NCBI RefSeq assembly: GCF_963675165.1
Contig: NC_087388.1
Span: forward strand, 5,709,047-5,773,046
Source of the DNA: Halichondria panicea
Lineage: Eukaryota > Porifera > Demospongiae > Suberitida > Halichondriidae
Reading direction: 5' to 3'
Length of the DNA stretch: 64,000 bases
The notes under the pieces were generated by a model that ran no database searches, was not told the origin of the DNA, and was given only the letters and a program-made list of their open reading frames with translations. Below are positions 6,327 to 59,901 of this stretch, piece by piece. How positions within the stretch are numbered: position 1 is the first letter of the stretch; every line of letters begins with the position of its first letter. The translations under genes were made by a program, and so were the position numbers.

Positions 6327-8041
6327 TTAGGGAATAATTGCAAACTCTACAGAATCAGTACATGTTCCATTAGGTCTATTATACCCTCCAACAGTCATTA
6401 TCTTGTCTTCAAAAGCAACAGCAAAACCCAAACATCGAGGCTCAGACAATTGACCTTTCAGCTCCTTCCAAACATCTTCACTAGTGTGATAGACGTGGAC
6501 AAGCTTCGTTCCTTTTTGCTGACCTGTCTCGGTGTTAAATTTCCAGCCTCCAATTGCCATTACATGGTTGCGAAATGACACGCATGCAGAGGTTTTAAAT
6601 TCCAGATTTTGTATTTTCCTGAAGATGTCATGATCGTCGGTGTTAGATTTAACAAGTTGTGACACTGTTGCTACACAAGCATTCCTTGTTGGAACAATAT
6701 CTCCATCTCTAACCACGTATCCTCCTAGTATGTAAAGCATGCCATCACACACACAGCCAGAAGCACGAAACACTTTATAAGGAAGACTGGCAAGCTCACG
6801 CCATACCCTATCTTGAGATGTAACGATCAAAACATCGACTGTCTGTATTATTCCATGAGGACTGTTTCCCCCAGCTATGATTAGGCAACCATTGCTAAAC
6901 ACAACTGTCATCTGGCTTCGTTTCGTCCTCAATTTTGGGTAAATCGAGCATGTCCATTCTCTATCGGTCAACTGGTAGATTGCATCGGTATATTCTTCTT
7001 CGTCTTCATCTTGTCGATGAATTTTACGCTTGATTCCACCGATTGTGTGAAGATGGAAATGGATAGCTCCTTTGTAAGGAACAGGCAACACAACCAAAGA
7101 AGCATCTCTGACAAGGCAATCAGCTGATACTGACCATCCACTGGTCAAATTGTATGAATAGATTTTCCTGCTGCGATAGGGCCTGAAATATGCCGTGTCA
7201 TCATGAACTGCAGCATCGATGGGGCTGGACATTCTCTCAAAAGCTCGAATATCACGCCGAGTGTTCCATTGCAGCTCATGGGGGGAATCACTAGGCCCAG
7301 CTGAGGAGTGGACATAAAGTAAAACCCACATGCATGGTATGAAAGTACTACAGATGTACTTACCCTGAGTTGGGCTGTTGAGACTGGTGATTGAGGCAGT
7401 TGAAGAGGCGCAATGTTTCTTTGATAGCCCATCTCTGGCAATGGAAAGGTAATCATGACCTGATGGCATACTAGTACTGAGCTGCTGAACACTAGTCGGT
7501 TGTGACACATCCTCTGGTGCACTGAACGTTCTTTGCTTTGGAGTAGCTGGCACAGTGAGACCTCTGGGTTGGGCTGCATGCATGACACACATGCAATGAC
7601 ATAAAAAATGCAGTAATTTTGATTGAGGGTGAAGGGACACAGTCAGACACTGCATGACGTTTACACTAATATGAGGTTATAAATCATGTGATAAGACAGC
7701 CTACCTATATCCTCAGCAATTTTTCTCTGGTCTACAGATCTCGAACAAAGAGCTTGCATAATGTCCTGCCATGTTGTCGATTGACCGTTTCGCAGCCAAT
7801 GAGACAACGTCTCTCGTAGACATGCTTTGCAATCAGAACTCCTATGATTAGCTTTAATCTGCCTTAAAGTAGGTTCAAGAACCTTCAAAGCGAGGCCGAA
7901 GTTGTGCCACTCATCTGCCGTATCAATAACAGCATCAAAAACATCATGCAGATTGTCAATAGAGAGAACGTCTCCTCCTATTGTACGATCAGTACTCTCC
8001 ACTGGACTGAGGGGAAACTGTGTATCATCAGTATTGGCCAT
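6327..8041 (-). CDS. Death-kelch protein K1 (506 aa)
   Basis: Minus-strand exons are 7705-8041, 7364-7573 and 6327-7300, all joined in phase 1. Residues about 30-112 form a Death domain with the pattern W.NFGLALKV..PTLRQI, CLRETLSHWL, TTWQDIMQAL and KIAEDI. A Ser/Thr/Pro-rich linker (about 113-183) follows. The last exon encodes a kelch-type beta-propeller with glycine pairs in LIIAGGNS, MLYILGGY, VMAIGGWK and IMTVGGYNRP and conserved aromatics between them. The pairing suggests an adaptor that combines Death-fold assembly with substrate recognition, but partners are unknown. The ATG at 8041 was chosen as the first methionine before the Death domain. K2 and K3 share the exon plan. Confidence 0.8.
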
Positions 8042-15752: not shown

Positions 15753-17392
15753 TTAGGAAATGATTGCAAACTCTACAGAATCAGTACATGTTCCATTAGG
15801 TCTATTATACCCTCCAACAGTCATTATCTTGTCTTCAAAAGCAGCAGCAAAACCTAAACATCGAGGCTCAGACAATTGACCTTTCAGCTCCTTCCAAACA
15901 TTCTCACCAGTGTGATAGACGTGGACAAGCTTCACCCCTTTTTGCTGATGTGTCTCCGTATCAAATTTCGAGCCTCCAATTGCCAATACATGATTGCGAA
16001 ACGACACACATGCAGCGTGTTTAAATTCCAGACTTTGTATTTTCCTGACTATGTCATGATCGTTGGTGTGAGATTTAACAAGTTCCGACACTGTTGCTAC
16101 ACAAGCATTCCTTGTTGGAACAAAATCTCCCTCTCTAACCACGTATCCTCCTAGTATGTAAAGCATGCCATTGCACACACAGCCAGAAGCACGAAACACT
16201 TTATAAGGAAGACAGGCAACCTCACGCCATACCTTGTTTTGGGATGTAACGATCAAAACATCGACTGCTTGTATTATTCCATGAGCACTGTTGCCCCCAA
16301 CTATGATTAGGCATCCATTGCTAAACACAACTGTCACCTGGCTTCGTTTCGTCCTCAATTTTGGGTAAATTGAACGTGTCCATTCTCTGTGAGCAGGATC
16401 GGTCAACTGATAAATAGCATCTGTGTATTCTTCTTCGTTTTTATTTTGCCGATGAATTTTACGCTCGACTCCACCGATTGTGTGAAGAAGGAAACGAACA
16501 GCTTGTTTGTAAGGAACAGGCAGCACAACCAAAGAAGTATCTCTGACAAGGCAATCAGCTGCTATTGACCATCCCCTCGTCAAATTGTATAAATAGATTT
16601 TCCTGGTCTGATAGGGCCTGAAGTATGCCGTGTCATCGTGAACTGCAGCATTGATGGGGCTGGATATTTTCTCAAGAGCTTGAATATCACACGGATTGTT
16701 CCATCGCAACATATGGGGGAAATCAATGGGCCCAGCTGCAAGGGTAAAGCAAAACAATAAAACCCAGACTATAGAATTAATGTACTTACCATGAGTTGGG
16801 TTGTTGAGATTGCAGGTCATTGAGGCAGTTGAAGAGGCACGATGTTCCCTTGATAGCTCATCTCCTGCAAAGGACATGTAATCACCACCCAATGATGGCA
16901 TACTAGCACTGTGCTGTTGAGTAAGAGTACGTTCAGTCGGTTGTGATACATCCTCTGATGCACTGAACGCTATTGGATTCTGAGCAGCTGGTGCAGTGAG
17001 ACCTTTGGATTGGGCTGCAAGACACACATAAAAAGTGCAATAATTTAGTATATTTTAATAATAACTTTTATATGATAAGACAGCCTACCTATATTCTCAG
17101 CAATTTTTCTCTGATCTACAGATCGCGAACAAAGAGCTCGGATGATGTTCTGCCAGGTTGTCGATCGACTATTTCGCAGCCAATGAGACAACATCTCTCG
17201 TAGACAATCGATATCCTTACACTCCAAACTCTGAAAATTAGCTCGTATTTTTCTCAAAGTAAGTTCACGAACATTCAAAGCCAGCCCAATGTTGTACCAC
17301 TTATGTCTAGCATCAATAAGGATATTTAAAACATGATGCAGATCGTCAATAGAGAGCATATTTCCTCCTGTTGTACGATCAGTACTCTCCAT
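15753..17392 (-). CDS. Death-kelch protein K2 (503 aa)
   Basis: Minus-strand exons are 17089-17392, 16790-17014 and 15753-16735, all phase 1, with GTAGGC and GTAAGT donors. The Death domain (about residues 10-101) keeps the W.NIGLALNV, CLREMLSHWL, TTWQNIIRAL and KIAENI landmarks. The linker is 75 codons. The kelch exon has LIIVGGNS, MLYILGGY, VLAIGGSK and IMTVGGYNRP blades. The predicted start MESTDRTTGG is shorter than in K1, whose N-terminus extends upstream through the equivalent position. The gene appears intact. It precedes MT2 on the same strand, repeating the K1-MT1 arrangement. Confidence 0.8.
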
Positions 17393-25098: not shown

Positions 25099-28000
25099 TT
25101 AGGGAATGATTGCAAACTCTACAGAATCGGTACATATTCTTTCAGGTCTATCGTACCCTCCAACAATCATTATCTGTTTGTCCTCAAAAGCAGCAGCAAA
25201 ACTCGAACATCGAGGCTCAGACAATTGACCTTTCAGCTCCTTCCAAACATCTTCACCAGTGTGGTAGACGTAGACAAGCTTTGTCGGTTGATCTGTCGCT
25301 TTGTCATAACCTCCAATTGCCAATACATGGTTGTCAAATGTTATGCATGCAGAGGTTTTGAATTTCAGATTTTCTATTTTCCTGAAGAAATGATCGTCGG
25401 TGGGAGATTTAACAAGATGCGATACCGTTGCTACACAAGCATTCCTTGTTGGAACAAAATCTCCTTCTTTATTAACCACTTTTCCTCCTAGTATGTAAAG
25501 TATTCCATTGCACACGCAGCCAGAAGCACGATACACAGGATAAGGAAGACTGGAAACCTCACGCCATTTCTTATCTTGACATGTGGATCTAATAGTCAGC
25601 ACTTCCACTGTGTTAACTGGTCCAAGATCATTTTTGCCCCCAGCTACAATTAGGCATTCATCACTGAGTACAGTGGTCACCTGGCTTCGTTTGGTCTTCA
25701 ATTTCGGGTAATTTGAACTTGATTTCCATAATTCTGGAGCTATGATTGGGCATTCATCACTGCGCACAGTAGTTATCTGGCTTTGTTTAGTGTTAAATTT
25801 CAGGTGATTTGAACTTGATCTCAATAATCCAGCACAATCAGTCAACTGATAGTAGTAGATGGCATTAGTGAATTCATCGCCAGGGGATTTTCGATGTTCT
25901 TCAGGCTTGATTCCACCAATTGTGTGAAGATGGAAATGGTCAGCTCCTTCGTAAGCGACAGGCAACACAACCAAAGAAGTATCTCTGACAAGGCAATCAG
26001 CTGATACTGACCATCCACTGGTCAAATTGTATGAGTAGATGTTTCTGCTGCGATAAGCCCTAAAATATGCTGTGTCACGGTGAACTACAGCATCGATTGG
26101 ACTGGACATTTTCTCAGGAGCTCGAATATCACACTTGTTCCATTGCAGATCATGGGGGAATAAACAGGGTCCAGCTGCAAGAGGTGAAGCAAACTTAGCA
26201 TTGTAAACAAAAGTCTAGATGTTTACGTATTTACCTAGAGTTGGTCTGTTGTTGCTGACCATTGAGGCAGCTGAAGAGGCACGACGTTTTTGTGGTAGAC
26301 ACTCTTTGACAGTAGACATGAAACTACATGATGGCACACTAGTACTAAACTTTTCAGCACTATCAGTCTGTTGTGAAACATCCTTTAGTGCAGGCTGTGG
26401 AACAGCAGGCAGAGTGAGACCTTCAAAGCATGCTGTATGACACATTAAAAAGTGCATAATTAATTTCCGTATACAAAATTGGTACTCATTTAGAACGAAA
26501 AAATATTTACATTTAGTGTGTGAATACCCACTGGTTAATTGGTGCTTCAATTATATAGGTCTGGAGACTCTTGCAGCATTTCCGTGTGCTCTAGCGGAAT
26601 GTGGACAGAGCCAATGAAATGCACATCCTATGGTCATGTGATTTTTAATTCAGGGTTATTGCCTCTGTGGAATTTGGATTGCCCAATGAAATGAGAGTAT
26701 TGCTACATCTACTCCTTCTTTAAACCTCCAATGTCACAAGTGATTGAAATTCCAAGAGCACACGGAAATGCTGCAAGAGTTTCCAGACCTTTTCTCCTCT
26801 CTTCCCTCCCCCCCCCTGAGAAAGGGTCGCCTGGCCTCCAGACTAGAGTTAGCTATAGAGATGCAGTAAAACAGCTAGGAGTATCCTAGCTTTTTGTTTA
26901 CAGTGCATGGGAGCTATAAAAATAACCGTGATATCCATCTGAAGGACTCTAGATCTTTGGGCACGCTGTTACCTTGTCTGATCATGCTAAGAGAATGTGA
27001 GACATATAGATATGAGGTGGACTTCGACCCTTTTTATTCTATAGTCAAATGTTGTCAAATGAACATATTAATTATAACACATAATAGATCCAGTTAGGGT
27101 TGCCTGCTTGCCTAGGTTCACTTTATATATAGAGTAAACGACTGAATTTCGTCAGCTAAAAGTGCTTATAATGCACGTAAAAAACGAGATTGATTCTAAC
27201 TAACTGCACACACTAATAGATGGCTATGGGACTACTAACCAGCGAAAATTTGAGTTACTTCCAGTCGGAGCTGTGATAACTAGAAAAAACTACCGAATAT
27301 AATTATATCGATTTTCGCCAGAGTGAAACCTATCTCCGTTTTTTACAAAACTACACAGCTAGCTAGAGCTAACCGGCACATACTGGGCTCAATCTAGATA
27401 GAGCACAGTACATGGTGGAGTAATCCTAGAATCAGTGAACCTTGCAAAGCTGAGCTATATACATGTAGAGTGGTTTGTTTCTGACGAATGTGAAGTGCTG
27501 AGTCAGCAATGAGCCCCACCCACCATAGACTCCCCCCTTAGCAATGAGCTCCACCCACCCCAGAAAGCTAGAGTGGGTGGGGCTCATTGCTGACTCAGCA
27601 CTTTACATTCACACTCTACTCAGCTTTGCAAGGTTCACTGATTCTAGGATTACTCCACCATGTACTGTGCTCTATCTAGGTGGAGCTCAGTATGTGTCAG
27701 TTAGCTGGCTCTACTCCATACATGAGCGCATGTGCTAACAATCAGTTTCTACGGTATATAGTCGCTGAGATTTAGAGAGGGTGACTATAATAACACTGTA
27801 AATAGTAGTATAGAAGGACTAACCCATGCAGCCTACCTATTTTCTCAGCAATTTTTCTCTGCCCTACAGTTTGTGAGCAAAGTGCTTGAATAATGCTCTG
27901 CCAGGTCGTTGATTGACCATTCTGCAACCAACGAGACAACATCTTCTGTAGACGATCTATGCACTCAGAATTATCGGCTGTAATCTGGTTCAAAGTAGGC

Positions 28001-28113
28001 GGACGAAGTCCCAAAGCCAGGCCGATATAGTACCACTTTTCTGCTGCATCACAAACAGCATCCAAAACATTGTACAGATCGTCAATAGAGAGCAACTTAT
28101 CATGATCAGTCAT
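25099..28113 (-). CDS. Death-kelch protein K3 (516 aa)
   Basis: Minus-strand exons are 27837-28113, 26235-26432 and 25099-26174, all phase 1. The Death domain keeps W.YIGLALGL, RLQKMLSRWL, TTWQSIIQAL and KIAEKI. The ATG at 28113 is the first in frame. The kelch exon is about 31 codons longer than in K2. Residues around FNTKQSQITTVRSDEC and LKTKRSQVTTVLSDEC show an internal duplication of one blade segment. The first intron is about 1.4 kb and contains two foldback elements (26557-26790 and about 27366-27720). No MT-like gene follows this copy; the retroelement fragment lies there instead. Confidence 0.75.
26557..26790. mobile_element. MITE with AGGTCTGGAGACTCTTGCAG ends
   Basis: About 35-bp inverted ends (continuing CATTTCCGTGTGCTCT) bound a 234-bp element in intron 1 of K3. 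There is a single main mismatch cluster between the ends. The target duplication is unclear. Confidence 0.85.
27366..27720. mobile_element. Foldback element with about 150-bp arms
   Basis: The left arm runs to about 27520 and the right arm from about 27570. They are near-exact inverted copies, including TACATGGTGGAGTAATCCTA and AGTGCTGAGTCAGCAATGAG. Such a transcript would form a long hairpin. It lies in intron 1 of K3. Confidence 0.85.
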
Positions 28114-33058: not shown

Positions 33059-33420
33059 TCATACATCAGTCCGGATCCGCTTTTCTTCGATTTCCTCAGC
33101 TACATCATTACGTTCAACAAGAGGACTTCTCAGACATTTACATATATAAGGCCATGTCATCGGATGTTCTGTGACTTCAAGACGCTTGCCCACTATCTCC
33201 ATTAGGCGGCGTTTGTTACTGGTGTATTGGCCTTCAATGTCTTTCAAATCATTATGCGAAATTTTAAACACTATTCCCAATTCGAACCAATTTTTAGTTG
33301 CATCCTTCAGACTTTCACAAATTGTTTGAATATCTGCTTTTTCAGCTGGAACAATAATGGGATTGGAGGACGGTCGTTTTGCAATTTCTACTGTTTTGTT
33401 TTTGCTAAGAGGTGACGATC
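33059..33420 (-). CDS. Death-domain exon (at least 120 aa)
   Basis: An open exon runs from an acceptor (TGTGTAG at 33421-33427, minus strand) to TGA at 33059-33061. Residues about 30-115 form a Death domain with WFELGIVFKI, LMEIVGKRL, MTWPYICKCL and DVAEEIEEK. The exon enters in phase 1. A candidate 5' exon lies at 33752-33814, but its phase-0 donor does not fit, so the gene model is incomplete. Degraded relatives are at 29.7 kb and, at lower similarity, in the 2A gene. Confidence 0.6.
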
Positions 33421-37609: not shown

Positions 37610-40600
37610 CACTTGAAAGCAAATACCCTGTATAATAAATTGTGTACTGATAGCCTATAGTGTGTGGTAGCCTATAGTGTGGTCCCACTGTGTACACTGT
37701 AGTTAGTGTACTGATAGCCTATAGTGTGGTCCCACTGTGCACACTGTAGACTAGTGTACAGAGCCTATAGTGTGGTCCCACTGTGTACACTGTAGCTAGT
37801 GTACAGAGTCTATAGTGTGGTCCCACTGTGTGCACTGTAGTTAGTGTACAGAGCCTATAGTGTGGTCCCACTGTGTGCACTGTAGTTAGTGTACAGAGCC
37901 TATAGTGTGGTCCCACTGTGTGCACTGTAGCTAGTGTACAGAGCCTATAGTGTGGTCCCACTGTGTGCACTGTAGTTGGTGTACAGAGCCTATAGTGTGG
38001 TCCCACTGTGTGCACTGTAGCTGGTGTACAGAGCCTATAGTGTGGTCCCACTGTGTGCACTGTAGTTAGTGTACAGAGCCTATAGTGTGGTCCCACTGTG
38101 TGCACTGTAGCTAGTGTACAGAGCCTATTGTGTGGTCCCACTGTGTGGACTGTAGCTAGTGTACAGAGCCTATAGTGTGGTCCCACTGTGTGCACTGTAG
38201 CTAGTGTACAGAGCCTATAGTGTGGTCCCACTGTGTGCACTGTAGCTAGTGTACAGAGCCTATAGTGTGGTCCCACTGTGTGCACTGTAGCTAGTGTACA
38301 GAGCCTATAGTGTGGTCCCACTGTGTGCACTGTAGCTAGTGTACTGATAGCCTATAGTGTGGTCCCACAGTGTGCACTGTAGTGGTTGACTTGCAAGGTT
38401 TGCATTCAAGCAAATGTTGTCCTACCTCATCTGTGAACTCAATATAAGCAAAACCTTTCGACCTCCCCTCTCTGTTCTTGATCAGCCGAACCTCTTTGAT
38501 CTCTCCACACTGCAGCAAAACACGTTAACTACAGCACTCAATATATCCACATAAAACATTAAGACAAATAAACCATTGATAAGACAGATTACTTGTCATT
38601 CAGTGTAATAAGTACTAGCATGAATGTACATTACATTTACTGTCCTTGAATACACAGAGCACCCCTAATCATGCTACCTGTTGGAAGTGCTCCCTTAACT
38701 CCTGGTCAGTGATGTGGTGGGCAATGTGAGACACAAACACTGTGGCTTTAGAGTCAGAGCGCTGAGGTGTCTGTGTGTGTGTGTGTGTGTGGGGGGGGTG
38801 TCAGTAGGATATGGCTAACACAGTACATACACTGTAACATAAGTGCACTATCAGTCGTGATAATGACGAGTAGAGTTACAGCACTTATTGAATGTAATGA
38901 CATAATGAAATGCAACAACAATGTTCTAGTGCAATCAAAACAAAAATAATTTCACTAACACACTGCACAGTAGGTCAGTGGTGGCTATTTCCAATCCTCT
39001 ATATCAATTCAACACACATACGTAGCCTAACATGTGGTACACTAGGTACTGGGCCTAACATGTGGCACACTAGGTACTGGGCCTAACATGTGGCACACTA
39101 GGTACTGGGCCTAACATGTGGTACACTAGGTACTGGGCCTAACATGTGGCACACTAGGTACTGGGCCTAACATGTGGCACACTAGGTACTGGGCCTAACA
39201 TGTGGCACACTAGGTACTGGGCCTAACATGTGGTACACTAGGTACTAGGCCTAACATGTGGTACACTAGGTACTGGGCCTAACATGTGGCACACTAGGTA
39301 CTGGGCCACTAGGTACTAGGCCTAACATGTGGTACACTAGGTACTGGGCCTAACATGTGGCACACTAGGTACTGGGCCTAACATGTGGCACACTAGGTAC
39401 TGGGCCTAACATGTGGCACACTAGGCACTGGGCCTAACATGTGGTACACTAGGCACTGGGCCTAACATGTGGCACACTAGGTACTGGGCCTAACATGTGG
39501 CACACATGAGGTACACTAGGTGCTAGGCCTAACATGTGGCACACATGTGGTACACTAGGTGCTAGGCCTAACATGTGGTACACATGTGGTACACTAGGTA
39601 CTGGGCCTAACATGAGGTACACATGTGGTACACTAGGTACTGGGCCTAACATGAGGTACACATGTGGTACACTAGGTACTGGGCCTAACATGAGGTACAC
39701 TAGGTGCTAGGCCTAACATGAGGTACACTAGGCACTGGGCCTAACATGTGGCACACATGTGGTACACTAGGTACTGGGCCTAACATGAGGTACACTAGGT
39801 ACTGGGCCTAACATGTGGCACACTAGGTACTAGGCCTAACATGTGGTACACTAGCTAAGAGTGTGAGTATTTTTGGGTTAGTACTGACCATGCACCACCA
39901 CCCAACCAGTGTGGGCACATCCCTGTACATTGTACATGCATATATACTTACTAGAATGTTTTGTGAGTGAAAAACTCTTTTTAAATGAGCCAAATCAGCA
40001 GAAAATTTGACACTCCTATCGTTTTGGCATGGATCGATCGTGATGTCATACAAGTACTGGTATAAGTTTTTGTAATTAATTTTGTAAAGTGATCAACACT
40101 GGCAAAATTTGCATATGCTTGTAAGTAGTAATAAATGATGGTATATAGTCACCTTGTCCCCCAGACTAGACACAGGTCTTCCCTTCTCCTTGAACTGTGA
40201 GACGTACATCGGACGTCCCTCAATCTCCGTCTTGTCAAGCCCCAGTGCACTGGCTACGGGGTCAGGGGTCGCGAACTCTACGTAGGCGTAGACATTGCCC
40301 TTGTTAGACTGGCGCGTTCTGATGAGCCGAATCTCAGCGATTAGTCCACACTAGAGATAATTATATGCAGCAGAAATATTAATTTTGTTGAGTACCCGTT
40401 ATTTGTAAAAGTTTCCTTCAAACTTGTGGGAGGTAAAATATGTACAAAGTGTTACTGGCTGTTACTGGCTGTGTTATCGGATTACTTCAGTATACTGTAT
40501 AATGTACGTACATAGCTACTTAAACTTCCACATAGCTACTTACACCACTGTTACTGTCTGTACACATATACATGTATATATATGAAAGGATCAACTAGCT

Positions 40601-43243
40601 ACAATGTGCATACACCTAACAGGTGCATCTAGTAAGCAAACAACTGTAGCAGGTGATCTCTACACTCACTGGTGTGAAGATCTCCCTGAGTTCATCCTCA
40701 GTGGCCTTGAAGCTCAGGTTACTCACAAACACAGTCCTGGCCTCCTTCGGACCCTCTGTCTCAACCTTTGCTGCCTCCACTGTTGGAACCTTCTTACTGG
40801 GCAACTGTACAATGCCAGTCTCAGCTACAACTGTGCGTGTGTGTGTGGGTGTGTGTGGGCATGCGTGTGTGTGTGGGTGTGTGTGGGCATGCGTGTGTGT
40901 GGCAAGGTCTAGTATTATAGTAGTGCTGTCATTAATTGAATACGAAAATTGGCAAGCAGTGCAACGTACATTTCTGTTTCTTAACCGCCGGTTGTTGATC
41001 ATCTGACATTTCTCTACCAGGAGGTGGTCTCTTACGGCCTAAACTTTGACCCTTATCTCTGCTGCTGACTCTGCCCTTTCCTATGTCCATCTTTCTGTGC
41101 TTCTTTAGATCATCCTTTTTGAAAGCATCTTTTTCAGCAGCCTGAGAGAAAAAATATAATGATTTGAGATATTGCAAAAACAAGCTCACACCACTCATAA
41201 CTTCACACACACCCACCCTACCGCCCACACACACACACACACCTTTTCCCTTCTCGCTCGTACACGGTCCAGCTGTGCCTCACACCTCACCAATGCCCCC
41301 TCAAATGACTCGAGGTCGCCAGATTCCCTCTCAAACTGTAGCAGTGCCTCACACACCATCTCCGGGTCATCACTGGCAGAGTTAGACGCCCGTTGTAGCA
41401 CCTTACGACAGCTGGCAGTGTCGCCATGGGACCTAGGGGCGGAGGGTAGAGGGTGTGCTTGATATGAGTGTGACAGAAACAATCCTGGGATCACAGTACA
41501 TGTGTTACATGATTGTACAGTAATGTATAATTATATCTCAACTCTTTTGATTGGTCATAACTTGGGCTAGGAGCATCTAATTTCAGTGGCATTATGATTG
41601 TCTGAAAGCCCAGAAAAAGTTCTATCAGATGGCATGTTTAGCTCAACATTTTTGATCAGACCTGAATTTGAACTTTCCCCCACCTATAGCCCACGCTTTT
41701 TTGACAAAATTAGCCCTGAAAATGACCTTTGATCTTAATGCACCATCTGAAAGAGCTCACTTTAAGCTACCAGAAAAACATTAAATCATTGAAATTGGAC
41801 CATCCAAACCCAAGTTATGGCCGTTCAAAATGTACGGTTTGTGTTATATATACTCCGGACATGTACAAGTATTGACTGTACACAATGTACCTCTCAATGC
41901 TAGCGTACTCTATCCAGTATTGTGCCTGCTTCCCGTATCTACTCATCACTTCCACCCAGAGCGCCCGTGCCGTCTCCATATTGTCATAGCAACGAGCCTC
42001 CAGGCTGGCCTGGTAACGAGAGAGAGAGTCTGTAGGGTCACCATCCTTACCATATACTGTAGAGGAGGGGGTGAGGGTTGATTATGTTAGGCACAACACT
42101 GATAAGCTGTAAACCCAAAAAGTAATATTCATATAGATAATGCATCTAGAGATGTGCCTACACTGGTCGGTGGTGGTTGGTACTAATCACCTTCAGACAA
42201 AAATAAAGGTCTAGTTTACTACTTTACAACCAATTCGGATGATAGAAAACAGCCACCATTTCAAATAATTATAGGCACATCACTAGGCATCAGAATTATA
42301 CTCCTACATGTAGTGGTACGGTAAATACTGTACTAATGTACTGGCATATGGTATTGGTGCTCTTACATGCTTCAAGACTGTCTCGAGCTCTTTTAAATGT
42401 CTTCCGTAACTCCACCAAATTAGGACTGGCCGTCTCCATGCCCTCCACCCCCTCCCCAGGGGTCAAAGGTGAGAGGGGCGTGTGCACTTGTCTCCGGAGG
42501 TAGTCACAGTATGCAGTCCACAACTTGAGATAGTCTGCAGCCACAGAGAGGTTGCCCTTCAAGCCCTTCTCAAACACAGCGTGCAGGAAACAGAAACGAA
42601 AACGTTTTCATACACTGGGACATCTCTAAGGGCAACAATGATTATTATGATCAATAACATGATCACAGCAATGCATACTATAGTTACATGTAAGCAGCTT
42701 AATAAAGTTGTCGCAAATAATGTTCAATCAGTTATTCTTTAAGCTATTTGCAGAGATACTTACATTGGCTACAATTACTGTACCAACATGCACAATTGTG
42801 TAGTAGAGCTAGCACGTAGGTCACGCACAGTAGAGACATCATCTTGTATAACTTACTGACCAACAATTTCCTCGTGATTAGTCTGGACACGCTCCAGTGC
42901 TCGTGTGTAGCTCATCCAGAAGTCGACCACCCACGGACAATTACGCAGCGACTGCTTGCAACCAGAGACAACGACCAATCCAACCTTACCAAAGCTAGTG
43001 GTCTGTTTGAGAGGCGGAATAGATCACAAATTAACTTTTCTGTTTTGAGCACACACAATTTCAACCATAATTATAATAGGAATAAATATGTAAATTACAC
43101 ATAGCCAGCTGCTCACTATATAGTTGAGATAGTTCTTCCAGAGCTGCTGGTCTAGAGGGTGGTAGGCCAGGGCCCGCTTGTAGAGGGTGTGGTTGAGGGA
43201 GGGGTCTGCTTTGGACTGAGAGAGGTGGGCCAGGTAGCGATAT
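36703..43243 (-). CDS. SART3-like spliceosome recycling factor (copy S2)
   Basis: Minus-strand exons are 43117-43243, 42861-43002, 42367-42579, 41891-42056, 41243-41411, 40970-41141, 40670-40830, 40153-40350, 38678-38761, 38426-38509, 37282-37466 and 36703-36856. Phases are consistent throughout. The order is HAT helices (YKRALAYHPLDQQLWKNYL, RNCPWVVDFWMSYTRALE, CDYLRRQV, WIEYASIE), a basic region, RRM1 (TVFVSNLSFKATEDELREIF and VYAYVEFA), RRM2 (TVFVSHIAHHITDQELREHF and GFAYIEFTDE), and a tail with LLPRAL and LSNDDFRKLLAKK. In animals SART3 helps reassemble U4/U6 snRNP. Oddities: no start exon is visible, the acceptor of 42367-42579 reads CACG instead of CAG, and a duplicated RRM half-exon abuts the first HAT exon. 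It is either a 5'-truncated copy or one continuing outside what I can recognise. Confidence 0.75.
37081..37265. mobile_element. CAGGGTGTCATACAGG element in a SART3 intron
   Basis: The ends CAGGGTGTCATACAGG and CCTGTATGACACCCTG are inverted and flanked by CTACT at 37076-37080 and 37266-37270. The interior holds G and C homopolymer runs. Copies S1 and S3 lack it. Confidence 0.9.
37672..38387. repeat. 45-bp minisatellite in a SART3 intron
   Basis: About fourteen units of 45 bp, each containing TATAGTGTGGTCCCACTGTG and CACTGTAG(C/T)TAGTGTACAG. Because 45 is divisible by three, the minus strand is open as a 15-residue repeat, but this is probably an accident of unit length inside an intron. S1 has a single unit at about 18930-18965. 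Confidence 0.95.
39025..39852. repeat. 28-bp minisatellite in a SART3 intron
   Basis: Around 28 units of CCTAACATGTGGCACACTAG plus GTACTGGG, with C/T and G/A variants and some units carrying an extra ACATGTGGTAC. It lies between the RRM1 and RRM2 exons. S1 lacks it. Confidence 0.95.
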
Positions 43244-43263
43244 CTGGATATTACTTGGAAGTG

Positions 43264-43335
43264 TTCCCTCAACTCCTGGTCAGTGATATGATGGGCAATG
43301 TGAGACACAAACACTGTGGCTTTAGAGTCAGAGCG
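43264..43335 (-). repeat. Extra RRM2 half-exon fused to HAT exon (S2)
   Basis: Encodes FVSHIAHHITDQELREHFQ and continues in frame through VISRYRYL into the HAT exon without an intron. It duplicates the exon at 38678-38761. The equivalent fusion exists in S1. Confidence 0.75.
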
Positions 43336-43649
43336 CCGAGTCTTTGTGCATGTGTGGGTGTGAGTGAGTGGTGGGCGGAGGAGGTGGGGGTCGAGTTAGG
43401 GCTGGGATACCAGTATATAGGTATAATTGCCAGTACCTCAGTATAACAATACTCCTAACAATCTCATGCTAAATTAGTGAAGTTCAAGTGTATAGTTGAT
43501 GAAAGTATACTTGATGAATATCATGCATCAGTCCAGATTATAATATAGTAACACACATGTTGGGTGGATACAGGGTACTAAGTAAGTCTCACCTTCAGTT
43601 TTAGAGCAAGCAGAGAGCCAATCTTGATGACCTTTTTCTAACCCATACA

Positions 43650-44461: not shown

Positions 44462-48103
<3,642 letters not shown>

Positions 48104-48940: not shown

Positions 48941-49776
48941 TGAAAGCACCGCAGGTGCTGATGCCTCGGTGGAGGTGTCAAAGCTAAAGCTATATTAGCT
49001 ATTTTAGCACTAGCTTTTTTTACACACATTATATCAAATCATGATGCATAAAAATTAAGCTAGCTCTTGGACGTACATGCTGTTTGTCTGCCACCAATCT
49101 ATATACCAGTAATTCCCAGGCTGAAGACAGTCATCAGAGAAGGTGGGGCTCTTAGTGTGGTTTTTACAGAGGAAGGGGGGGCTCCAGCCCAGAGGAGGTA
49201 CGACATCCGCGTGTCATCCGCATGTCTTTAACACATACATTCTTTAGGTCAAAGTTCGGAATGTGTGTGTTAAAGACATGCGGATGACACGCGGACGTCG
49301 TACCTCCTCTGGCTCCAGCCCCCAAAGCCCTGCCCCTCCCTACGCCCCTGGCATGGGGTAATAATCAACCATGATTGTTGTTAAAAACGATGGATGCCTA
49401 AAGTCCCAAGTCTAAAATGACTTAATTCAGCAGAGCCTTGCAGCTCTCTAGTCTTCTCACTCTTGCAGCTACCAATATCTAGCGCTCTAGTACAGAGCTA
49501 ACTACTATAAGTAGAGTAGCAACACTCTGTGGACAAGTTATTCTACGCACTCTTCTGAAAAGGCTGCAATGGCATTCCAAGTAAGCAAAACTAGGCATAA
49601 GTCGAGAACGAAGCATTATTTTGCAAATCCACGAATTGAAATCCATGACTAGAAGCCTATATAGAAACTCTTACTTGCACTTCTTGAGCAGCTGTAGCAG
49701 TCTACACACAGACAGACAGACAGATAGACAGACAAACACACAAACACACTACCGTATACCTCGCTTGCGCATGCAC
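48941..49776. mobile_element. Interspersed repeat (TGAAAGCAC family), copy 2
   Basis: Matches 12157-13066 outside its nested element, up to CCGTATACCTCGCTTGCGCA; the last bases are missing. It carries its own insertion at about 49100-49360, which includes a foldback with roughly 48-bp arms (49191-49311) reading GAGGAGGTACGAC outward. Confidence 0.8.
49191..49311. repeat. Foldback with near-perfect 48-bp arms
   Basis: The left arm includes GTGTCATCCGCATGTCTTTA and the right arm is its inverted copy, around a loop of about 25 bp near 49240-49262. It is probably a tiny MITE inside the repeat copy. Confidence 0.85.
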
Positions 49777-49914: not shown

Positions 49915-52649
49915 TTGAATCATTATCAGAGGTATTATCTCCTTCATCTGGTTGACTCTATATACGAAAGAATGAGGATTAGTACCTGCATGCGCAGTTA
50001 GCACATTATAATCATACAATCCATGGACACCAACAACATGCAGCAGAGCTACCACTATATAAATTAGAGGGCTGAATGACAACAAACTTGATACGTACCT
50101 CAGCTGGATAATGCACATCCCTACAGTGTAGCTGTAAGACCCCTTGACTCTGTAGAGCACGTTCTTGATCCGTTGACAGTGGAAAGATGTCACTTGTGAT
50201 AAAATACGGCAACGAAAATATTAGTTCGATACAACCATCATCAATTTTAACGAGTTTTAAAACACCATCATTCAGGTTCAAGATTGAACTTAAATTCGAT
50301 TCGAATAACTTCAGTCGACTCATTTCACAATTGTCGTAGGTAGAATCGAGCTTTACAATCATAGTGACGGTATCTTCTCTAGAGTTTGACCTAATCTCTC
50401 CTTTCACTACTCGCCTCTTAGCATACTCAATAAAATCGGTTTTGTACTGTCTCATGTTTTCTTTGTCGATATCTGTTCCAAGGCGGTTAGTAATCAGCTC
50501 CACCATATAATAGTCAAAGAAGGAGAAGTAGTCAGCAATAATTTGCCAAACTTCCGCAGTATTAGAACATTTCGAAAGTTTCTCTCTTTGACCTCCGAAA
50601 ACACACGGATTTCCTTTATCAAATACTTTCTTTAAACAGTTAATCCCCACCAAACAAGTTACTAAAGAGTCTTTAGTAATTTCATGTGATTGGTTTAGTT
50701 GTGACACAAGATCGCCAAACTTCATTTCCATCTTCATCGAATCTACTTCTAACTTTTCTATGGATAGAGACGTATTAAATTTTTTGCAAAGTAGTTGACT
50801 GGTAGTACCTGCATGAAAGTCAATGCTGTGTTACATACACGATTGTACAATCACGTACACTAACATGCAGTTGGTTTAACTGCAACGACGAAAGATGGGA
50901 CATATAATTATAATTATAGTTATAGAGCTAATTAGACCACTCCAAATGAGACTGCATGTAGTTTCGTCAGATGCTGCTGTAAAAAATGTAAGCCCGGACA
51001 GGAGCATTACTATCATTACTATGAATATTGTTGTAAACATGCGACGTCATTGATGAACTTCATTAAAGAACCACAACAATTGAGAAATAATGTCAATAAT
51101 GACTATAATAATAGCAATGGCATGAAGCGCAGAGGATAGGAAACTACAGCCGTATTTGGAGTGGCCATATGTTAATAAGTTATAAGTCATTATACATAAA
51201 ATTAATGCAGCATTTTTGTGAGCAGAACCAGAATACACAAACAAACACACACATACAGACACACTAAAATTATTAATCCCTGGCCACGCTTACACAATTG
51301 GATTACTCACTACATTGTACTGAGTTAGTGCTAGCTTACTGTCTGACGAATCGTTTTCTTGGGTGCTTTGAGTTATCTGTGTGTGCAAATAGGAGATTGT
51401 ATAATATACCTGGTAAAAGATCAGAAAATGTAGTACTCAGTGGTAACTATGGTGTTTATAATTAGTATAACAGAACGGCTAAGAGTGCAATATGGGATAA
51501 TAGCATGAGTAACAACCAATGGCTAATGCACGAGAATCAGCCACTTGCCAGTGCTTGTTATTAATCCATACTCTAATCGTGTATCCCTGCAGTTTTTATT
51601 AACATTTTTGGCCACGGCCGTTATTCGAAAACAATACGTTGTCATTGACAGCGTGCAATTACAGTCACTAATAGCACATCATAATTCGATTATAATTGAT
51701 ACTATTAAGGTACGTACAAAACTGTAAATGCCCTAATTGGATTTACCTTAAGTTCTTCTCTGTTTTTCTCTGTAAAATGTGTGTGCATGTAAACAGGCGA
51801 GTTATAACTAGTACTTTAAGGTAAAGCGTACATGTCAGAGAATAAACCTTATATTAATAGCCACTCACTTTCAACATATTCCTCTATCGCTTCAGCTACA
51901 TCATTTCTTGCCACTGTAGAGTTCCTGAGAGCAGTACACATACCTCTCCAAGTTAGAGGACCACCTGACTGCAGTCGACGAGCTAGGGCCTCACGTAAAC
52001 ACACATCATTGTCACCACGGTACGTATCACGAAAATTGGCTAAGTCAGTATAGCTCAAATTCAACGCAAGTCCCAAATCAAACCACTTTGGACTAGCACT
52101 CCTCACCTTCTCACATACCTCAAATAAGTCAGAGATAGACACAACGGTATCTGTATTACAATTAAATATAATTCGTATCATAACATCAGCTAGGAAACAC
52201 ATACCCATTCCAGGTCCAGGGTTTAGCTCCACATCTCCGGCCAATAACAGGAGAAGAGAGAAGGAGTAGACAACTATTACTCCTATCAAGATCACAGTAA
52301 TGGTGCGGCTAAAACAAGTATTTGATGAGTGATGAGGTGTGAATTCTTCTTTCCTTTCAGGAACCATATCTTCATAGCAACAGTTACAAGAAGGAGCTCT
52401 GTTCCTAATTGGATCATGACGTGTATTTAGTAATGATTTGATCACAGACTTTTCACAATTGCTGGTAGCATCTTCAGCCAGGAACAGACTCAAGCTGCAA
52501 TACTGGGTCAGCAACACCATTGCGACTACAATATTAATAACATCACAGTGTAGCATCTGGTTAGTCAGGGAAGCATGACGTGACCGCCCTCCTCTTCCAC
52601 CATTGAATAACCCAATACGAGCTCTCCACAACTCAACATCAACGCCCAT
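49915..52649 (-). CDS. Death-domain gene with 2A ribosome-skipping motif
   Basis: Minus-strand exons are 51869-52649, 50099-50808 and 49915-49957 (then a GTAAGT donor; the 3' end is not found). Start ATG is at 52649. Residues 116-137 are strongly hydrophobic and run straight into GDVELNPGP (residues 138-146; 52212-52238), an exact D-V-E-x-N-P-G-P 2A motif. Skipping would release the first 145 residues and start a new chain at Pro146. After it come a Death domain (about 163-258: WFDLGLALNL, CLREALARRL, LTWRGMCTAL, DVAEAIEEY) and a second region (VWQIIADYFSFFDYYMVELI, KLDSTYDNC, ELIFSLPYFITSDIFPLS) that I know only as a recurrent partner of Death domains in sponge and cnidarian predicted proteins. 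Another hydrophobic stretch is at 38-58. Confidence 0.75.
52212..52238 (-). other. 2A ribosome-skipping motif (GDVELNPGP)
   Basis: Nine codons on the minus strand encode the conserved 2A core. Translation usually skips the Gly-Pro bond at residues 145/146. The preceding LLLLLA stretch is similar to 2A-like N-terminal signals described in sea-urchin and sponge NLR-type genes. Confidence 0.85.
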
Positions 52650-55052: not shown

Positions 55053-56765
55053 TCACTTTGGGACACAGCAATCGATGCCTTTCTTGGGGCATTTACAGTT
55101 GGGTCCACACTTGCAGTCTGCACCAGCACATCCCTTACACACACAAGGGCAGCAATTTCCAGCACACTTGTCTCCACACTGGCAATCAGGGCCACACTTG
55201 CAGTCAACTATAGGAGAGAAATAACAAGATTAGGTACAAAAGTCTCGTCTAGTGGTAGTGAAAACAAAGGCCATAATCACACAAATTAGAGCAATTAGCT
55301 TTTGCTTGCTTTGAATCGACAACGAGGCAGCCAACAAAATTCCAAATAATAAAATAAACTTACTACGTTTGCAAGGTCCAGCTACACAGCAATCGATGCC
55401 TTTCTTGGGGCATTTGCAGTTGGGTCCACACTTGCAGTCTGCACCAGCACATCTCTTACACACACAGAGGCAACAGCCACTCTCTCCAGCAGTACACTTG
55501 TCACCACACTGACAGTCAGGGCCACAGTTACAGTTGCCTGTGTAGGGAGGAAACAAATCGATGAACAACTTGCTTAAAACACAAAGGAGATAAATTCATG
55601 GAAAAGTCACAGAGATTTAGACAATAGACAAAAGAAGAGAGACTTACTGCATTTGCAAGGTCCAGCTACACAGCAATCGATGCCTTTCTTGGGGCATTTA
55701 CAGTTGGGTCCACACTTGCAGTCTGCACCAGCACATCCCTTACACACACAAGGACAGCAATTTCCAGTACACTTGTCTCCACACTGGCAGTCAGGGCCAC
55801 ACTTGCAGTCAGCTATAGGAGAGAAAAGTTTACAGTAAATTCTAGTTGAAGAAGAATAGACAGGCAGGAAAGAAACAAGCCATACACTAAACAACTTACC
55901 GCATTTGCAAGGTCCAGCTACACAGCAATCGATGCCTTTCTTGGGGCATTTGCAGTTGGGTCCACACTTGCAGTCTACACCAGCACATCCCTTACACACA
56001 CAGAGGCAACAGCCACTCTCTCCACCAGTACACTTGTCACCACACTGACAGTCAGGGCCACAGTTACAGTTGCCTGTAAGAGAAGAAATGAATCGATGAA
56101 CAACTTGCTTTATAAACACAAAGCAAATGAATACATGGAAAAGCCACAGAGATTTAGACAATAGACAAAAGAAGAGAGACTTACTGCATTTGCAAGGTCC
56201 AGCTACACAGCAATCGATGCCTTTCTTGGGGCATTTGCAGTTGGGTCCACACTTGCAGTCGGCACCAGCACATCCCTTACAAACACAAGGACAGCAATTT
56301 CCATCACACTTGTCTCCACACTGGTAGTCAGGGCACTTGCAGTCAGCTATAGTAGGAGAGAAATTAACGAATAAGATTAGGTACAAAGGTCTCCATAAAA
56401 GGTTAAGTGGTAGTGAAAAGCCACAATATTCCAAATGATAACATAAACTTACTGCGTTTGCAAGGTCCAGCTACACAGCAATCGATGCCTTTCTTGGGGC
56501 ATTTACAGTTGGGCCCACACTTGCAGTCTGCACCAGCACATCTCTTACACACACAGAGGCAACAGCCACTCTCTCCACCAGTACACTTGTCACCACACTG
56601 ACAGTCAGGGCCACAGTTACAGTTGCCTGCAAGTGTAGGGAGGAAATAATACTATAAAGCAGTGCTTTTACAAATGAGCCATGAAACTGATACACTAGAT
56701 ATATGCAGTCTAGTCACAGACTTACTGCACTTGCAGGGTCCAGCTGTAGTTGGTTTGTCCGCCAT
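55053..56765 (-). CDS. Metallothionein-like protein MT3, six Cys repeats (347 aa)
   Basis: Minus-strand exons are 56726-56765, 56453-56626, 56185-56346, 55900-56073, 55648-55812, 55364-55537 and 55053-55207. All joins are phase 1 and the frame is open from MADKPTTAGPCKC to the stop at 55053-55055. The six repeats have the CxC/CC pattern of MT1, mixing long (GGESGCCLC) and short (GNCCPC) forms. One Cys is Tyr (DYQC, third exon) and one GAD is GVD. At about 350 residues with well over 100 cysteines, it is far longer than usual 60-75-residue metallothioneins. It lies downstream of K6 with a repeat element between them. Confidence 0.8.
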
Positions 56766-57779: not shown

Positions 57780-59901
57780 TTAGGGAATGATTGCAAACTC
57801 TACAGAATAAGTACATGCTCCACTGGGTCTATCATACCCTCCTACAATCATTATCTGTTGTCTGTCCTCAAAAGCAGCAGCAAAACTCAAACATCGAGGC
57901 TCAGACAATTGACCTTTCAGCTCCTTCCAAACATCCTCACCAGCGTGATAGACGTAGACAAGCTTTGTCCCTTTTTGCTGACCTGTCTCGGTGTCAAATT
58001 TCCAGCCTCCAATTGCCAATACATGGTTGCGAAATGATACACATGCAGATGTTTTGAATTCCAAATTTTGTATTTTCTTAAAGATGTCTTGATCATCGTT
58101 GTGAGATTTAACAAGTTGTGACACTGTTGCTACACAAGCACTCCTTGTTGGAACAAAATCTCCTTCCTTGAACACATATCCTCCTAGTATGTAAAGCATG
58201 CCATTGCAGTGGCGGATCCAGAGGAGGGTCCATAGGGTCCCTTGACCCCCCCTTTTGAAGTTAACTTTAGAAGGCTTAATGACTCCAGCTAGCTATTTAT
58301 CAGTTTTTGTAGCTATTGTAATTTGATTCAATGATTGTACCTGTTGTTTTGATGTATCAACTGCCAAAAGAGTGTTCAGGTTAGCCTAGGCTAGCTAGTT
58401 GACTGTTCGTAGCAGCTAGCTAGCTCTACGCAAGTCTATTATGGGACTTCCCCTGGCTGAGTATGGGATTTTCCCTAGTCACGTGTGACCGAAAGTGGGC
58501 GTAACCCCAAAAAATTCGCGCTGCGCGCTCGTTAGTTTGGACCCCCCCCTTTCATTTTTACTGGATCCGCCACTGCATTGCATACACAACCAGAAGCATG
58601 AAACACTTTGTAAGGAAGACAGGCAACCTCACGCCATATCTTGTCTTGACATGTAACGGTCAAAACATCGACTGTTTGTATTATTCCATGAGCACTGTTA
58701 CCACCAGCTATGATTAGGCAGCCATTGCTAAACACAACTGTCACTTGGCTTCGTTTGGTTTTCAATTTTGGGTAATTGCTTGAATATATCCATTCTCTGC
58801 GAGCAGGATTGGTCAACTGGTAGATAGTATCTGTAAATTCGTCGTCTGGGCCTTGTCGATCTTTTTTACGCTTAATTCCATCGATGGTGTGAAGCTGGAA
58901 TTGGACAACTCCTTCAACAGGCAATACAACCAAAGAAGCATCTTTGACAGGGCACTTTGCTAATTTTGACCATCCCCCATTACCAACATGATGGCCATGA
59001 CTCAAAGTGTACGAGTAGATTCTCCTATTGCGAGGCCTGAAATACGCCGTGTCACCGTAAACTACAGCATCAATGGGGCTGGAAGTTTTGTCTAAAGCTG
59101 AAGTATCACACTTGTTCCATTGCAACATATGGGGGAAATCACAGAGAAGTCCAGCTGCAAGGGATCAAGCAAAAATAAAACGCACCATGGGAAACACAAG
59201 TATATATAGAGCATGCATGAGTTCATTTAGTTGGGCTGTTGACTGGCAATGGACATGTAATCACCTGATGGCATGTGCTGCTGAGTACGAGTTTCAGTCG
59301 GTTGTGGCACATCCTCTGGTACACTGAGGGTTCGTGGCTTTAGAGTGACTGCAACTGGCACAGTGATCATGATACCTCTGGATTGGGCTGCGTAACATTA
59401 ACCGGCATGATAGAATGTATGCAGTGTTTTATGACGGTGAAGGGGGCACAGTCAGACACTGCATGGCTCAGAGGCTTACATAGAATTATAGTGCAATTAT
59501 ATATAAGCTATAATTATAGGCTTGATACTATAATTATGACAAGACATACATGCAGCCTACCTATATCTTCAGCAAGTTTTCTCTGGTCTACAGATCGCGA
59601 ACAAAGAGCTTGGACGATATTCTGCCAGGTTGTTGATCGACTATTTCGCAGCCAATGAGACAACATCTCTCGTAGACAATCCGTACACCCCAAACTTCGA
59701 AAAGTAGCTCGTATTTGTCTCAAAGTAGGTTCACGAACATTTAAAGCCAGGCCAATGTTGTACCACTTATCTCCAGCATCAATAAGGATATTTAAAACAT
59801 CATGCAGATTGTCAATAGAGAGCACGTTTCCTCCTATTGTACAATCATGCAGTCTCCACTGGACTGAGGGGAAACGGTGTATCATCAGACTCTGTCATAC
59901 T
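57780..59901 (-). pseudogene. Death-kelch pseudogene K6, broken by a MITE
   Basis: Exon equivalents are 59561-59885 (Death: WYNIGLALNV, CLREMLSHWL, TTWQNIVQAL, KLAEDI), about 59230-59392 (linker) and 57780-59154 (kelch). Lesions: the 59901 start codon is followed by a frameshift and TGA near 59850; the linker exon has lost the GTAAGT donor and reads TAA; and a 369-bp element splits the kelch exon between the IWREVACLPYKVF and MLYILGGY coding parts. Apart from these, the kelch sequence is well conserved, so the damage seems recent. Confidence 0.85.
58207..58575. mobile_element. CAGTGGCGGATCCAG element in K6 kelch exon
   Basis: Ends CAGTGGCGGATCCAG and CTGGATCCGCCACTG are exact inverted copies, flanked by CATTG at 58202-58206 and 58576-58580. 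K1-K4 show the uninterrupted site. No coding region is seen. Confidence 0.95.

Follow-up and report, generated by a model that had tools for sequence, protein, structure and literature searches.

A 2A/StopGo motif under apparent selection, placed between a putatively membrane-directed front and a Death domain in a gene of the sponge Halichondria panicea

Based on our analysis of a 64,000-nucleotide stretch of the Halichondria panicea genome (contig NC_087388.1, positions 5,709,047 to 5,773,046; hereafter the window), we propose a model in which a 2A/StopGo motif governs the fate of a Death-domain protein. The sequence supports the central claim of the original prediction, namely that a 2A core, here found to be L-rich upstream and under apparent selection, is placed to cut a membrane-directed front from a Death-domain piece. 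The best explanation, to which we assign a probability of about 0.68, is that the 2A frees a cytosolic Death-domain protein and that failed skipping leaves the Death domain behind a signal or anchor. One mRNA would give rise to two products. Exon 1 would encode a front product of about 145 residues, made up of a start module, a variable middle, a hydrophobic segment and the L-rich 2A/StopGo site, and at the 2A the ribosome would let go of this front after Gly145 and resume at Pro146. Only two and one third codons separate the 2A from the splice junction, so that the second product would consist almost exactly of the Death domain and the exon-3 domain, and it would be cytosolic. Should skipping fail, the Death domain would be fused behind the signal or anchor segment and enter the membrane or the secretory route, so that the 2A would set the ratio of free cytosolic to membrane-routed Death-domain protein. 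The 2A, its retention, the intron that follows it, the Death fold and a conserved gene order are all supported by the sequence. The features concerned are these, in window positions:

52205..52649, minus strand: exon 1, encoding the front product (146 residues, the 2A included) and a further two and one third codons
52578..52649, minus strand: residues 1-24, the start module MGVDVELWRARIGLFNGGRGGRSR; found 28 times in the genome at E<1e-4 (families A and B)
52473..52541, minus strand: first hydrophobic segment, residues 37-59; Kyte-Doolittle peak 2.09 in the window copy
52239..52304, minus strand: second hydrophobic segment, residues 116-137, continuing into the 2A (Kyte-Doolittle peak 2.86, segment 109-143)
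52212..52238, minus strand: 2A/StopGo core GDVELNPGP, residues 138-146; predicted break G145/P146; dN/dS 0.14 in family A
52151..52204, minus strand: putative intron 1, 54 nt, GT...AG, frame-neutral in the window copy; in paralogs 48-54 nt, some with an in-frame stop and one 53 nt long
51869..52150, minus strand: exon 2, Death domain, from Pfam, family profile, AlphaFold and Foldseek
50809..51868, minus strand: intron 2, GT/AG borders by eye; donor after 51869, acceptor before 50808
50099..50808, minus strand: exon 3, a conserved domain of about 235 aa; border checked
49915..49957, minus strand: tentative short tail exon 4, by eye
7706-7969, 17090-17359, 27838-28101, 33083-33337 and 59562-59825, minus strand: further Death-type exons in the window

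The reading frame that contains the 2A starts at a minus-strand ATG at 52649 and stays open into the Death-type domain, which had been described as a single open exon. That description has to be given up, as a putative 54-nt intron (52204-52151), which in the window copy runs from GTATGT to ACAG, lies between the 2A and the Death domain. We read the stretch as an intron because its counterparts in paralogs show in-frame stops (L001, L018, L020 and L021) or a frame-breaking length: in six paralogs, a count that leaves out a seventh (L022), it measures 48, 51, 53, 54, 54 and 54 nt, of which the 53-nt form breaks the frame. It is best read as a GT-AG intron that in the window copy is divisible by three and stop-free by accident. 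By eye, a donor-like site lies one to three and a third codons past NPGP in families A, B, C14, C2 and C1. Exon 1 could be skipped via alternative splicing or promoters. At the other end of the gene, the tentative exon 4 may be followed by further tiny exons up to a stop near 49540; a short exon resembling exon 4 is readable in paralog L055. Elsewhere in the window, tandem Cys-rich repeats that are metallothionein-like by eye occupy 55230-56470 (minus strand; no Pfam match for 55607-56470), RRM- and HAT-repeat-like exons at 40093-43395 (minus strand) look by eye like an RNA-processing gene (RRM E 0.0012, under cut-off), and a long CA/TG dinucleotide array extends over 46700-47130.

The motif itself was recovered exactly where it had been predicted, GDVELNPGP occupying residues 138-146 (window 52238-52212, minus strand), and it contains the D(V/I)ExNPGP core of 2A/StopGo sequences. 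The hexapeptide LLLLAG precedes DVELNPGP, a configuration that fits the L-rich class with (A/S/C)G before the D; (A/S/C)G stands in this place in 55 of the 58 distinct 2A sites compared. This L-rich StopGo class, ending in (A/S/C)G and LLLLSG-like, is set out in PMC12846837, where a test peptide lost its activity when D12 or N16 was changed to alanine. Counting back from the final Pro, the window 2A matches D12, E14, N16, L7 and L9 of that test peptide, F4 and K8 being without a match. Its likeness to the class lies in LLLLAG before the D, V at position 13, L at position 15 and NPGP; the difference is that the class is defined on viral proteins, whereas the window site belongs to a cellular gene. 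We infer Gly-Pro skipping at the window 2A.

The domain after the 2A had been called a Death domain, and its relatives, its profile and its fold all bear this out. The window Death exon falls below the Pfam cut-off for PF00531 (13.4 bits vs 22.6), and a PF00531 match at E<=0.1 is obtained for 20 of 36 aligned exons, the window copy included. Against the PDB, the family profile matches the Death domains of PIDD and FADD (best E 1.8e-4), with 3 of its 21 matches at E<=1 being non-Death and all weak. AlphaFold gives a pLDDT of 86 for the six Death exons of the window, and the best 22 Foldseek matches of the AlphaFold model are all Death-domain chains (TM 0.51-0.77, E 0.02-0.9), none of them reaching E 0.001. 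The Death domains of FADD and PIDD are the best profile and fold matches of exon 2, from which they nevertheless differ in sequence, the eight best fold matches being 21-29% identical. In the window gene, neither a DED nor any other known partner domain was seen. The Death domain may have a signalling role, possibly as an adaptor. A separate exon at window 47278-47703 (minus strand) contains a Pfam Death domain over the cut-off, at 28.2 bits.

What does the front product consist of? Its start module follows the pattern MG..VELWRARIG..., which includes W-R-A-R-I-G. Searching the genome with the module returned 30 places, 28 of them at E<1e-4, and the pattern gave 28 matches, with a single one outside families A and B, against 1 match for the control. 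Within family A the module was detected in seven of the 11 2A genes; the four genes in which it was not detected lie on C1, C2 and C4, and their fronts probably begin differently or have their start in another exon. A long front product is therefore not general. The start modules of L058 (C13) and L073 (C15) score above all 4000 shuffles, and NACHT matches lie downstream of both. For L002 (C1) the module alone is not significant (7.5 bits vs a shuffle maximum of 10.4), although over its full length the exon matches at E 5.7e-8, a value owed in part to hydrophobic composition. When full exons were compared, eight of eight other fronts beat the shuffles, largely owing to the shared 2A end. Front products of seven family-A copies measure 123-146 residues, that of the window gene having 146, and those of the six family-B copies aligned measure 105-106. 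In all seven family-A copies that have both, the spacing from start module to 2A (345-414 nt) is divisible by three. Within the start module, a 23-nt stretch (window 52612-52634, minus strand), encoding E-L-W-R-A-R-I-G, is near-identical in families A and B, synonymous sites included, while the two families differ widely outside it; such near-identity might have arisen by gene conversion or mark a further constraint at the nucleotide level.

If skipping were nearly complete, the gene would make two separate proteins in a fixed ratio, a small membrane protein serving a function of its own and a Death-domain protein, and dual targeting would be a minor by-product. This alternative gains from the start module, which is kept across families A and B (dN/dS 0.30; 0.52 within A and 0.22 within B), occurs also at the C13 and C15 loci having Death and NACHT, and would not be needed by a mere signal peptide; moreover, the published L-rich example was active in vitro (PMC12846837). 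It loses from the exon-1 middle, which varies (dN/dS 0.59 in A, 0.33 in B), and from the C14 copies, which may have a 30-residue front only, and a front product with a job of its own is further weakened by 4 of the 11 family-A genes having no detected start module. We consider it unlikely, if still the most serious competitor to a 2A that divides the Death-domain protein between the cytosol and the membrane route.

The original prediction had also placed a hydrophobic stretch directly before the 2A, and there it is, as a Kyte-Doolittle segment spanning residues 109-143 with a peak of 2.86; a hydrophobic segment precedes the 2A in seven of seven fronts tested in this way, the signal function of the fronts being judged by hydropathy alone. 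The first hydrophobic segment was rejected as a family trait, since it is under the threshold in both family-A paralogs tested (L018 and L022). In the window gene the hydrophobic segment has a basic flank before it and an acidic flank after it. By the positive-inside rule, such flank charges would tend to place the Death domain in the lumen after failed skipping. The routing of each product is inferred. For some upstream sequences, 2A activity can fall when an N-terminal signal engages the ER translocon (PMC2978324). Lying 138 residues in, and should the translocon be engaged, the window site could be less efficient, or so regulated. It is conceivable, and we offer it as speculation with rather long odds, that the 2A exon is a regulated switch in which the hydrophobic segments bring the nascent chain to the ER translocon, translocon engagement or translation stress lowers skipping and the state of the ER sets the cytosolic Death-domain dose, and that a cassette of start module and 2A has spread over several immune-type Death families, with or without NACHT.

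Is the 2A under selection? Retention was assessed with a start-module query, which contains no 2A. An exact 2A lies 289-414 nt downstream of the start module at 26 of the 30 places, in frame in 25 of these 26. Among the 28 strong matches, the two lacking a 2A (L063 and L064) have broken frames; two weak matches (C5:2702639 and C5:2648825) are also without it. Two broken copies keep the 2A, L015 being out of frame and L057 having a stop in the module. Approached through the Death exon, family A comprises 12 listed genes; 11 carry an exact 2A, and in the remaining one the Death exon is interrupted by a stop. The dN/dS of the 2A core is 0.14 in family A (7 copies) and 0.00 in family B, the copies having been found by queries containing the 2A and most family-B copies through the motif itself. 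In other parts of the family-A gene the ratio is 1.17 (hydrophobic part), 0.59 (exon-1 middle) and 0.43 (Death exon), and it is 0.45 when residues 130-146 are taken together; these family-A values are sums over 21 pairs, among which the core shows 23 pairwise differences, so that the core has few independent changes. In the two families tested, A and B, the 2A motif thus shows signs of selection. These observations weigh on the idea that the hydrophobic segment and NPGP are a mere signal peptide or anchor in which an inert NPGP has been kept by descent. The hydrophobic segment in all seven fronts tested, the motif kept in two broken copies and the sponge NLRs with transmembrane domains reported in PMC12909245 agree with such an idea. 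It is made improbable by the core being under stronger constraint than the hydrophobic part (0.14 vs 1.17), by synonymous changes in the core among copies and families, and by the broken state of the two strong start-module copies that are without a 2A.

Across the genome (131 Mb, 39 contigs) there are 91 DVExNPGP and 25 DIExNPGP sites, 116 in total; reversed-pattern controls gave 0 sites and base composition predicts 0.09, and a chance origin of the motif was rejected. That the 2A exon derives from a piece of a captured non-LTR retrotransposon and lacks host function is very improbable and was rejected as the main reading: L056 in the same genome does have a 2A followed by PHD, endonuclease and reverse transcriptase, and other L056-like elements can be made out by eye, but the start-module pattern is not a repeat, exon 1 is under coding constraint, and a strong hydrophobic segment is present at 48 of 56 sites, element-type sites making up five of the eight with weak hydropathy. 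L011 and L062 are element-like by their Cys pattern, yet stand outside the weak-hydropathy sites. A viral origin of exon 1 was also rejected, no relative having been found in viral contigs with a single-sequence query, which reaches close relatives only.

A 2A core ahead of a Death domain is a recurrent arrangement in this genome. Among the Death-type places listed, a same-strand Death-type exon follows at least 62 of the 116 2A sites at a distance of no more than 1.5 kb, against 0 on the opposite strand; the Death match spans the 2A in 22 of these 62 sites and does not in 40. The list derives from 144 scored of 583 candidates, whose 147 matches less 4 covering exon 1 only leave 143 Death-type places, and it may favour 2A-carrying copies because its query contains the 2A. 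A 2A accompanies 40 of the 45 listed Death-type places on contig C14 and 2 of the 50 on contig C1, and since most C14 places have a 2A and most C1 places do not, the 2A marks certain subfamilies. In a tree of Death domains (36 rows, about 90 residues; weak) the 2A label needs 7 changes, of which well-supported branches force at least 2. The site of the window gene is the sole D(V/I)ExNPGP within the window, at 52238-52212, and the five other Death-type exons are therefore without a 2A exon. Additionally, the 2A core occurs in other settings. In L066 (C6), L074 and L075 (both C16) and L076 (C17) it is followed by Ser/Thr-rich, apparently disordered proteins with no Death match after the 2A, L076 having a coiled coil with a weak bZIP-like match. 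In L068 (C7:4930667) a domain follows the 2A directly, without an intron; by eye it is possibly CARD- or Death-like, and no Pfam match over the cut-off was found for it. In L065, L069, L071, L047 and L049 (C6, C10 and C12) a short part that is Death-like by eye comes directly after the 2A, again with no intron, and that of L065 has no Pfam match.

Downstream of the Death domain, the exon-3 domain shows 61-77% identity in family A and 45% in family B. The window copy has no Pfam match and no PDB match at E<=1, and one of six members matches TRADD-like_N at E 0.033; genome-wide the domain has 104 matches, of which many are distant. Behind 11 of 11 family-A 2A sites there follow, on the same strand, a Death exon and then an exon-3-like match, the latter 0.8 to 10.2 kb from the 2A, a distance that makes the exon-3 link unsure for the farthest site (C1). 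Of the 102 scored among 265 NACHT candidates, none lies closer than 150 kb to any of the 11 2A genes of family A, and the window gene is not supported as an NLR. The original prediction that it is not NACHT-bearing is borne out as far as tested, the gene comprising a Death domain, an unmatched conserved domain and probably short tail exons. Within the same scope (102 of 265 candidates scored), a NACHT lies within 6 kb downstream of at least 13 of the 116 2A sites: 2A, Death and NACHT stand in order at loci on C14, C15, C6 and C13, and at a C1 locus a 2A and a NACHT were found with no Death exon detected. Based on these neighbours, 2A-NLR loci of the urchin type coexist in this genome with 2A-Death genes in which no NACHT was detected.

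How does a 2A that would divide a Death-domain protein between two compartments compare with known systems? Non-LTR retrotransposons bearing 2As were reportedly described by Odon et al. 2013, and Rao et al. 2025 (Cell Rep 44:115822) is said to be a survey of eukaryotic 2As. Such elements share the core motif with the window gene and occur in the same genome, but in them (L056) PHD, endonuclease and reverse transcriptase follow the 2A, whereas the window gene has Death; neither endonuclease nor reverse transcriptase was found after the window 2A, exons 2 and 3 being the Death domain and a domain without a Pfam match. In the literature listings searched we found no account of a 2A in sponge Death or NLR genes, and an earlier mention is possible in Rao et al. 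2025 or Odon et al. 2013. Cellular use of StopGo is called very rare or absent in PMC12846837, against which stand the 116 core sites of this genome, at least 62 of them ahead of Death-type exons. If these are active, translational recoding would widely determine how much Death-domain protein is made and where it goes, also for proteins that are not NLR-like. The closest parallel is found in the sea urchin, where recoding by an NLR 2A-signal reaches about 80% in vitro (Roulston et al. 2016, PMC4981915), and where the wild type leaves a reporter in the cytoplasm while an inactive mutant sends it to the Golgi (PMC4981915). The original prediction took 2A-like sequences to have been reported for sponge NLR-type proteins too, but this paper (Traffic 2016, PMC4981915) concerns the sea urchin, and a word search of its text returned no occurrence of sponge, Porifera or Amphimedon. 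In both cases D(V/I)ExNPGP ends a hydrophobic, signal-like N-terminal segment upstream of a Death-type domain, and the dual-targeting logic is alike. The form tested in the urchin is a 26-residue N-terminal sequence on NACHT proteins, whereas the window 2A sits at residues 138-146 of a 146-residue exon; 2As elsewhere in the N-terminal region of urchin NLRs are counted in PMC4981915 too. The window gene further differs from the urchin NLRs in its start module, in the intron after its 2A and in having no detected NACHT. Thus, without a detected NACHT and without the short N-terminal form, the window gene would in principle follow the strategy of the sea-urchin 2A-signal NLRs.
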